From contig JAFDYD010000007.1 in NCBI GenBank assembly GCA_018267615.1, positions 1 through 55,016 of the forward strand: 55,016 nucleotides of DNA, given 5' to 3'. Made by a program: the position numbers and the translations under genes. Each line of letters starts with the position of its first letter. Within the stretch, counting starts at the first letter, position 1. Of the stretch, positions 33,159-33,731 are shown piece by piece. The notes under the pieces were generated by a model. It was given only the letters and a program-made list of their open reading frames with translations. It ran no database searches and was not told the origin of the DNA. Source of the stretch: Bacteroidota bacterium (GTDB lineage Bacteria > Bacteroidota > Bacteroidia > Chitinophagales > Chitinophagaceae).

Positions 33159-33191
33159 TAAAAAATGCCTGCATTCAACTTGCAGGCATTT
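33159..33191 (-). terminator. intrinsic terminator after the tRNA 3' fragment
   Basis: On the minus strand AAATGCCTGCA and TGCAGGCATTT form an 11-base stem with a 7-base loop, followed by TTTTTT. It lies 24 bases past the duplicated tRNA 3' end, the same arrangement as at the intact tRNA. The T-tract runs into ATGCC, exactly as at the other terminator. Confidence 0.8.
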
Positions 33192-33214
33192 GACATCTTT
33201 TGAATATGACTTTC

Positions 33215-33240
33215 GTGGAGGATATCGGAGTCGAACCGAC
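33215..33240 (-). repeat. duplicated 3' end of tRNA-Ala
   Basis: Matches bases 33574-33599, which are the T-arm and acceptor 3' strand of the intact tRNA-Ala, at 25 of 26 positions (A/G difference in the T-loop side). No 5' half, D-arm or anticodon arm accompanies it, so it is not a functional tRNA. The distance between copies is 359 bases, and a GIY-YIG gene lies between. This is the geometry of an element integrated at a tRNA 3' end. Confidence 0.85.
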
Positions 33241-33241
33241 G

Positions 33242-33267
33242 AGCTTCCCGACATGCGTCGGGACGCT
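33242..33267. repeat. short hairpin between GIY-YIG stop and tRNA fragment
   Basis: AGCTTCCCGAC and GTCGGGACGCT are complementary at 10 of 11 positions around the loop ATGC. It begins one base after the GIY-YIG stop codon and ends one base before the tRNA 3' fragment. The palindrome AGCGATCGCT lies just upstream within the coding end. The position suggests an element end or recombination site. Confidence 0.75.
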
Positions 33268-33519
33268 TTAGAGCGATCGCTGAATGAGACATTCAATATA
33301 TCGTCGGCTCTTTTTCTTTTTTATTTCCATTTCCCTTTTCATGGCATCAGATCTTGTTTGAAAAGTCTCCATAGAAACCAAATTCCAATCCTTTGCTTTT
33401 TTAGTTGATTTGCTTCCAGAATTTATATGACGAAATAAGCGATCTTCAAAATTTTCGGAGTGACCAACATAATATTGATCTTGTGATGATGAGTAAATAA
33501 CGTAAACGCAAAAGGGCAT
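33268..33519 (-). CDS. small GIY-YIG nuclease domain protein beside tRNA-Ala
   Basis: An 83-residue single-domain GIY-YIG protein. The first motif is VYVIYS (5-10), the second YYVG (16-19), followed by Arg27, His31 and the conserved acidic region KREMEIKKKKS (61-71), so the catalytic set looks complete. Stand-alone members of this UvrC/YhbQ-like family cut DNA; some are homing nucleases. The ATG at 33519 is chosen because upstream in-frame sequence is translated tRNA. It directly abuts the T-tract of the tRNA terminator, so expression would need terminator read-through or an unseen promoter. The last residues IQRSL run into a palindrome. Confidence 0.85.
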   Translation of the reverse strand: MPFCVYVIYSSSQDQYYVGHSENFEDRLFRHINSGSKSTKKAKDWNLVSMETFQTRSDAMKREMEIKKKKSRRYIECLIQRSL

Positions 33520-33547
33520 AAAAAAGGCTCTACTTTTAGGAGCCTTC
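33520..33547 (-). terminator. intrinsic terminator of tRNA-Ala
   Basis: On the minus strand AAGGCTC, CTAAAAGTA and GAGCCTT form a stem-loop followed by TTTTT, 28 bases after the tRNA 3' end. The next three bases are the ATG of the GIY-YIG gene. Confidence 0.85.
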
Positions 33548-33574
33548 TCGTGAAGAAAAATTGTGTCAGAATTG

Positions 33575-33648
33575 TGGAGGATATCGGGGTCGAACCGACG
33601 ACCTCTAGCGTGCCACGCTAGCGCTCTAGCCAACTGAGCTAATCCCCC
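33575..33648 (-). tRNA. tRNA-Ala (anticodon GGC)
   Basis: The minus strand folds into a full cloverleaf: acceptor GGGGGAT/ATCCTCC with the G3:U70 pair that identifies alanine tRNA, D-arm GCTC/GAGC, anticodon stem CTAGC/GCTAG with loop GTGGCAC (anticodon GGC), T-arm GTCGG/CCGAT with TTCGACC, discriminator A. CCA is not encoded (CCACAA follows). A -7 box lies at 33664-33671 and an intrinsic terminator at 33520-33547. The 3' end is duplicated at 33215-33240. Confidence 0.96.
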
Positions 33649-33663
33649 TTTTTTATCGGATTG

Positions 33664-33671
33664 CAAATATA
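33664..33671 (-). promoter_or_regulatory. -7 box for tRNA-Ala
   Basis: TATATTTG on the minus strand matches TAnnTTTG exactly and lies 15 bases before the tRNA 5' end. A good -33 TTTG is not seen. Confidence 0.6.
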
Positions 33672-33706
33672 GAATTTTCAAAACTATTTCGAATGTTGCC
33701 TGTTTG

Positions 33707-33714
33707 TATCTTTG
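33707..33714 (+). promoter_or_regulatory. -7 box for the 57-residue membrane protein gene
   Basis: TATCTTTG on the plus strand matches TAnnTTTG exactly, 17 bases before ATG 33732, giving a very short 5' leader. It forms a divergent pair with the tRNA box at 33664-33671. Confidence 0.6.
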
Positions 33715-33731
33715 AAACACAAATATATTTT

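Follow-up and report, generated by a model that had tools for sequence, protein, structure and literature searches.

Integrase elements that insert at tRNA 3' ends regenerate an intact tRNA and displace the original 3' end. In fungal mitochondria, organellar GIY-YIG genes carry with them a second copy of their target gene's 3' end. UPF0213 (YhbQ-like) and SLX1, the nearest proteins to the one studied here by sequence profile and fold, are to our knowledge not known as parts of a tRNA-embedded unit, and a literature search on UPF0213 found nothing related. In GIY-YIG homing nucleases the catalytic domain is linked to a separate region for DNA binding (PMC2988022); Table 1 of that paper places SegB of phage T4, a homing nuclease of this type, in a tRNA region. 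REPs, the palindromes associated with RAYT (Y1 HUH) transposases, usually exceed 100 copies per genome (PMC2817692).

The locus described here resembles each of these systems in part. With SegB and other free-standing GIY-YIG homing endonucleases it shares the GIY-YIG catalytic domain, a gene in a tRNA region and a lineage tied to one target; unlike them, it occurs in bacterial genomes, encodes 83 residues that are almost the catalytic domain alone, and has a duplicated tRNA, an arm palindrome and an intact target tRNA. As in REP/RAYT systems, a nuclease gene has flanking palindromes that co-vary with it, and gene-less copies lie nearby; however, the nuclease is GIY-YIG rather than a Y1 transposase, and the palindromes lie within tRNA copies and are not high-copy in this genome. 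An intact tRNA with a displaced 3' end is the geometry of integrase elements, but there is no integrase, a mirror layout with a 5' fragment occurs, and the place of the break varies by lineage. Organellar GIY-YIG genes likewise keep the target functional through a supplied 3' part, whereas their targets are protein-coding organelle genes and they have no palindrome.

The window, the whole stretch of 55,016 nt that was analysed, holds the unit on the minus strand. Read from 33648 to 33163, its parts are as follows.

33574..33648, minus strand: intact tRNA-Ala(GGC) (ARAGORN; Rfam RF00005, 61 bits)
33520..33546, minus strand: terminator-like hairpin with T-run, in the interval from tRNA to gene (from sequence; fold z -2.87)
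33268..33519, minus strand: GIY-YIG nuclease gene, 83 aa, one domain (PF01541, E = 5.6e-15, 55.8 bits, residues 3-72)
33264..33271, minus strand: vestige of tRNA nt 20-27 that borders the palindrome on the left (CTAAAGCG against CTAGAGCG; from sequence)
33246..33263, minus strand: 18-nt palindrome TCCCGACGCATGTCGGGA, at the anticodon-arm place of the displaced copy (from sequence; -7.4 kcal/mol, z -4.59)
33215..33245, minus strand: displaced tRNA-Ala 3' part, nt 45-75 (29/31 identical to the intact copy)
33163..33191, minus strand (stem, then TTTTTT): second terminator-like hairpin, beyond the displaced copy (from sequence)

This is the arrangement that an earlier, sequence-only reading of the DNA had noted (intact tRNA, hairpins, 83-residue GIY-YIG gene, second 3' end), and ARAGORN, Rfam and PF01541 bear it out. 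The 3'-end repeat it described, matching at 25 of 26 bases 359 bases apart (33215-33240), can be extended to 31 nt with 29 matches. The displaced copy is called as a tRNA by neither ARAGORN nor Rfam. The first hairpin is absent from the output of a consensus terminator scan, which lists the inverted repeat at 33163..33191 with a T-rich tail on the plus strand. The nuclease ATG follows immediately after the T-run of the first hairpin. At the other end of the gene, the remnant of tRNA nt 20-27 matches at 7 of 8 bases and overlaps the stop codon; this left flank falls below the threshold of our border-scoring script, and nt 27 is also the left palindrome edge in other tRNA-Ala members of the family. 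From 33271 to 33215 the minus strand thus reads CTAAAGCG-TCCCGACGCATGTCGGGA-AGCTCGTCGGTTCGACTCCGATATCCTCCAC, followed by the second hairpin with its T-run. The net geometry is tRNA nt 1-44 / nt 45-75, terminator, gene, nt ~20-27, palindrome / nt 45-75, second terminator. As the sequence-only reading held, there is no integrase: the GIY-YIG ORF is the sole recognisable gene between the two tRNA-Ala copies, and no site-specific recombinase is found there. Nor does a group I intron account for the layout, the tRNA being the only Rfam match in the window; in a check for intron-type homing nucleases, the TIGR01453 match lay under its cut-off.

The general palindrome motif is in itself unremarkable for a window of this size: TCCCGN{2,14}CGGGA occurs once against 0.19 expected, and it is present in 17 of 100 shuffles. 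The full 7-bp arms occur in none of 100 shuffles, for a pattern derived from the same sequence. What makes the palindrome notable is its position, exactly at the missing anticodon arm of the displaced copy, likewise in relatives. The second tRNA-Ala copy is not a chance match, since among 51 distinct tRNA sequences examined from the genome only this tRNA-Ala and one tRNA-Met have an uncalled partial copy (score >30) within 500 bp. A third in-genome case is a tRNA-Phe pair of which both copies are called as tRNAs. A 150-aa open frame (33268-33720, minus strand) runs from upstream of the tRNA through the tRNA and terminator into the nuclease gene, and such through-tRNA frames may mislead the annotation of these nuclease genes.

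To see how far the association extends, related genes were collected. With the window protein as sole query, matches were found in 22 of 58 genomes at 43 places; 30 of these places were examined, and a tRNA lies within 100 bp in 19 of the 30 loci, the tRNA-Ala unit included. This count is the fairer estimate of linkage, as profile A1, built from 22 proteins that are mostly tRNA-linked, enriches for tRNA-linked genes. Profile A1 matches in 139 of 198 genomes of one order. Among its matches listed there, 132 of 155 genes lie in a locus with a tRNA, and in all 132 the closest tRNA is on the gene's strand. The tRNA is no more than 100 bp away for 96 genes (upstream in 72, downstream in 22 and overlapping in 2), and 19 regular anticodon labels are represented among these; 23 of the 155 are without a tRNA in the locus, some of them at contig ends. 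This 155-gene set was drawn from the best matches listed, with G509:C5 and G435:C28 left out, and G053:C2 and G057:C5 (L022, L030) enter only the later sets. ARAGORN at times calls a palindrome-bearing copy a tRNA (e.g. L110, L113, L115, L172, L004, L173), so a few tRNAs labelled intact are in fact broken copies.

Across the phylum Bacteroidota, 268 of 392 genomes have a match. Among 27 new phylum-wide loci a tRNA lies within 100 bp in 19 and in the locus in 25, the nearest being on the same strand in 25/25. A palindrome of the classes defined earlier, in whose definition these loci had no part, was found near the gene in 21 of the 27. In contrast, only 4 of the 30 best PF01541 matches of the phylum have a tRNA in the locus.

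Two layouts were observed. In the first, an intact tRNA is followed by a terminator, the gene and a tRNA 3' part; in the second, its mirror, a tRNA 5' part precedes the gene and the intact tRNA lies downstream. The sequence-only reading had seen the geometry of an integrated element: the displaced 3' fragment stands, and the picture is amended in that the hairpin is central and the mirror layout exists as well. In 77 of 114 loci the copy on the far side scores above 40 when aligned to the intact tRNA, compared to 11 of 342 mismatched controls, while 37 of the 114 have no second copy above that score. A motif palindrome, most commonly of the form TCCCG...CGGGA, is present in 87 of 125 far-side flanks, whereas shuffling yields one in 6 of 1244 cases and distal regions have one in 1 of 231, the remaining 38 far sides being without one; the five classes (A-E) were set after the first loci had been viewed and are descriptive, the controls using the same patterns.

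The displaced copy is interrupted by the palindrome and the intact copy is uninterrupted. Counting a border as tRNA at a local score of at least 14, the palindrome has tRNA sequence on both borders in 75 of 87 loci; shuffled borders reach this score on either side in 320 of 1740 cases and on both in 20 of 1740. The border at nt 27/28|45/46 is exact in 31 loci (tRNA-Ala, Val, Met, Pro, Arg, Leu) and in 0 of 1740 shuffled borders, and at 27|45 the palindrome stands instead of the anticodon arm. Which region is broken depends on the lineage (D-arm, anticodon arm, variable region or T-arm), and further borders lie at 38|51 in five tRNA-Asp loci, at ~37|48 in seven loci that belong to a single tRNA-Met lineage, and at 22|23 or 23|24 in four tRNA-Arg and Leu loci, where the palindrome is a pure insertion and nothing is lost. 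A further copy beyond the intact tRNA, with no gene between, was found in 31 of 125 loci (28 when other full tRNAs were masked), and 23 of the 28 carry a palindrome.

Comparison with unoccupied sites bears directly on whether gene and copy belong together. Three sites were read in the genus, at tRNA-Ala (lpxB), tRNA-Asp (accA) and tRNA-Phe (recQ), leaving out loci without a called tRNA (contig ends, lost synteny). A second copy is present at 5 of 5 loci that carry the nuclease gene (L041 and L045 at tRNA-Ala, L244 and L248 at tRNA-Asp, and the tRNA-Phe of the window's own genome) and at 0 of 61 without it. The gene-free loci comprise 18 Ala, 23 Asp and 20 Phe, with best copy scores of 18, 20 and 24, four of the Phe loci having less than 30 bp of downstream flank. 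At the lpxB site the gene occupies 2 of 20 tRNA-Ala loci. Gene and second copy are thus together present or together absent at the sites compared. In L045 (G018) a palindrome-bearing copy lies upstream of the tRNA, with its palindrome 58 bp away, and after the gene, which is 650 bp downstream, comes a further truncated copy that also bears a palindrome. The gene-free L058 has TCCCG...CGGGA, in the terminator and with no tRNA copy.

These counts contradict the view of the second fragment as a leftover from an ancient tandem tRNA that has nothing to do with the gene. Decay of such a duplication beside a GIY-YIG gene that is nearby by accident would fit the truncation of the second copies; however, the copy is confined to gene-bearing loci (5/5 against 0/61), the nearest tRNA is on the gene's strand in 132 of 132 cases among the matches listed, and the palindrome borders are base-exact. 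We regard this explanation as scarcely credible.

The protein itself is small. The PF01541 match spans residues 3-72 of 83 and the remainder is one further helix (model pLDDT 88). Y6, Y17, G19, R27, H31 and E63 are invariant in 32 homologs, so that the conserved Y, R and E are all present; a conserved Arg, Glu and Asn take part in GIY-YIG catalysis (PMC2988022). The protein is probably an active DNA nuclease. Ten pairs of homologs lay within the identity limits for dN/dS, of which two without a finite dS and two with dS >1 were omitted; the six close pairs with dS <1 gave values of ~0.12, 0.03, 0.19, 0.15, 0.04 and 0.16. The protein is under purifying selection. No phage or plasmid vehicle was found: relatives of the protein turned up in none of the phage, plasmid or viral collections searched.

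By sequence, the closest solved relatives are UPF0213 and SLX1 (profile A1 against 1zg2, a UPF0213 structure: E 1.3e-14). With the predicted model as query, UPF0213 is also the best fold match (E 3.6e-4, rmsd 7.1) and the sole one with E <0.001; matches to SLX1 begin at E 6.8e-3, and the I-TevI catalytic domain ranks lower. SLX1 acts on branched DNA, according to the title of structure 6seh. The sequence-only reading had named a homing-type nuclease fold; this is amended in that the nearest relatives are UPF0213 and SLX1 and the separate DNA-binding part of GIY-YIG homing endonucleases is absent. The lack of an extra DNA-binding part, together with the presence of the palindrome, suggests that the nuclease recognises hairpin or branched DNA.

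To relate nuclease, tRNA and palindrome, we built a tree of 146 proteins over 78 columns by a quick method that leaves many forks unresolved; 141 of the 146 rows are labelled, odd labels were dropped before changes were counted, and one protein per locus leaves 124. On this tree the amino acid of the tRNA changes 36 times, compared to a mean of 89 when shuffled (minimum 82, 500 shuffles), and the nearest relative from another host family sits at the same tRNA in 77 of 123 cases (10% expected). Host family changes 63 times against 79 in shuffles (minimum 72). Palindrome class changes 14 times against 36.3 (minimum 32, 1000 shuffles), and the nearest relative at a different tRNA shares the palindrome class in 79 of 102 cases (41.8 expected). 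This sharing across tRNAs holds for classes A (59/64), B (12/12) and C (8/9), and is absent in D (0/5) and E (0/12), the latter being a mixed bin. The change and nearest-relative counts together tie the nuclease lineage to its tRNA and the palindrome to the nuclease.

Such a pattern invites comparison with sequence-specific homing, in which the nuclease would cut the arm in unoccupied copies of the tRNA gene and repair would copy the unit in, the palindrome conferring immunity only and going unrecognised. Nuclease lineages do track tRNA identity across hosts, the palindrome edges within the tRNA are fixed by lineage, as expected of a cut site, and the GIY-YIG homing nuclease SegB offers a precedent in a tRNA region (PMC2988022, Table 1). 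Yet palindrome class tracks the nuclease lineage across different tRNAs, which would be superfluous under pure immunity, and the protein is scarcely more than a GIY-YIG domain. Furthermore, sequence-specific cutting of the arm would cut the unit's own locus, because the intact tRNA there keeps the target arm and is unprotected; its sparing would be explained if the palindrome, and not the plain arm, were recognised. Sequence-specific homing is possible, though rather unlikely.

We instead favour, with moderate confidence, the reading of the tRNA-Ala unit as a minimal selfish element comprising one nuclease gene, a palindrome and duplicated tRNA sequence, which would spread via nuclease action and recombination. 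The nuclease, as predicted, would act on hairpin DNA at one tRNA arm; the break would be repaired through recombination between the tRNA halves; and recombination would thereby place a copy of the element in the corresponding tRNA gene elsewhere, leaving one intact tRNA. The nuclease would have as its substrate or recognition site either the palindrome or the tRNA arm whose place the palindrome takes, and repair or recombination would presumably move the unit. The duplication probably serves to keep a needed tRNA from destruction at insertion. A very small selfish unit lacking an integrase, as proposed by the sequence-only reading, accordingly remains the best account of the locus, with the T-arm as target giving way to the anticodon arm, which is the marked site in this lineage.

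Two further explanations start from the intact tRNA and from a role in the host. In a cleave-and-rescue scheme, the nuclease would destroy the native tRNA gene while the unit supplies a resistant, recoded tRNA, such that loss of the unit kills the cell. The intact tRNA usually adjoins the gene, and the anticodon arm of the tRNA-Ala unit is CTAGCGTGGCACGCTAG against the genus-usual CTTGCATGGCATGCAAG, with L037 and L038 also differing. However, seven distinct tRNA-Ala members (L035, L036, L103, L131, L141, L174, L204) keep the usual arm, ruling out recoding as a general feature of the tRNA-Ala units inspected, and altered arms also occur in element-free genomes (e.g. L042, L054), which makes the scheme highly improbable. 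As a separate observation, the tRNA-Ala(GGC) anticodon arms of this genome (33574-33648) and of G026 (L042) both show paired changes relative to the genus-usual arm.

Alternatively, the nuclease and the palindrome-bearing tRNA-like copy might serve regulation or defence as a module linked to transcription of the tRNA. The gene begins a short way past the tRNA, in many cases following a T-run (of at least five, in 67 of the 81 loci with a tRNA upstream within 100 bp), so transcription from the tRNA promoter is possible, and the purifying selection on the protein would also be in keeping with a host function. Presence is patchy, though, both across the order (139 of 198 genomes) and at the lpxB site (2 of 20 loci); the differing tRNAs by host, the tandem arrays and the decayed or gene-less remnants suit a selfish element better; and the best PADLOC match reaches just E 0.002. 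We consider a host function improbable.

Extending the selfish-element reading from this locus to the family, we judge the chances about evenly balanced that a class of mobile element a few hundred bases long, so far undescribed, parasitises tRNA genes throughout Bacteroidota. The nuclease, a structure-selective GIY-YIG protein of one domain, would travel with its cognate palindrome through hairpin-directed cutting and recombination across tRNA halves, the host would always keep one working tRNA, and the gene-less copies would be non-autonomous derivatives. For each of homing nuclease genes, REP/RAYT and integrase elements, a defining feature that was tested is absent here. A search of the literature other than subscription papers and preprints found no description of bacterial GIY-YIG genes with duplicated tRNAs, and the element is likely undescribed so far. 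If the reading is correct, these would be among the smallest autonomous mobile elements, parasites that inhabit tRNA genes with neither integrase nor intron, and would account for many genes annotated merely as 'GIY-YIG nuclease family protein'. The family also provides a nuclease and a palindrome that can be tested as a pair, and dozens of natural variants across tRNAs and arms.

The window's own genome contains a second unit at tRNA-Phe (G000:C44:74029-74449, L004) with a decayed nuclease gene, in which a stretch is missing between the YIG part and the conserved Arg; in its second copy TCCGCCGCGGCGGA takes the place of the D-arm. A gene-less scar is found at tRNA-Met (G000:C17 near 51144, L315), in which a terminator is followed by ~90 bp, a degenerate palindrome of the GGCGGA type and the final 30 bases of the tRNA. 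The palindrome gives 31 matches per strand in the genome against 4 for a control pattern; it is enriched and not high-copy, and REP-like dispersal in this genome was not found. Palindrome counts across the genus bear no relation by eye to gene presence. Tandem GIY-YIG arrays with identical scores occur in other genomes, with five units spaced 450 bp apart (G292:C1:120132-122135), three units spaced 317 bp apart (G188:C1:1733881-1734727) and a spacing of 315 bp (G350:C1:2945597-2947087).

Beyond tRNAs, one GIY-YIG gene (L089, 979-1701) abuts the 5' end of an RNase P RNA gene on the same strand, with ~10 bp overlap; the RNase P RNA gene is possibly another structured-RNA target. Several of the 30 loci L071-L100 have GIY-YIG genes away from tRNAs and amid palindromic repeats on both flanks (e.g. 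L076, L079, L083, L099). These repeats are CTTCGACAAGCTCAG-like or CGAGCGCAGTCGAG-like, the others of the 30 loci being without them, and the wider GIY-YIG family may serve other palindromes in the fashion of RAYT and REP.
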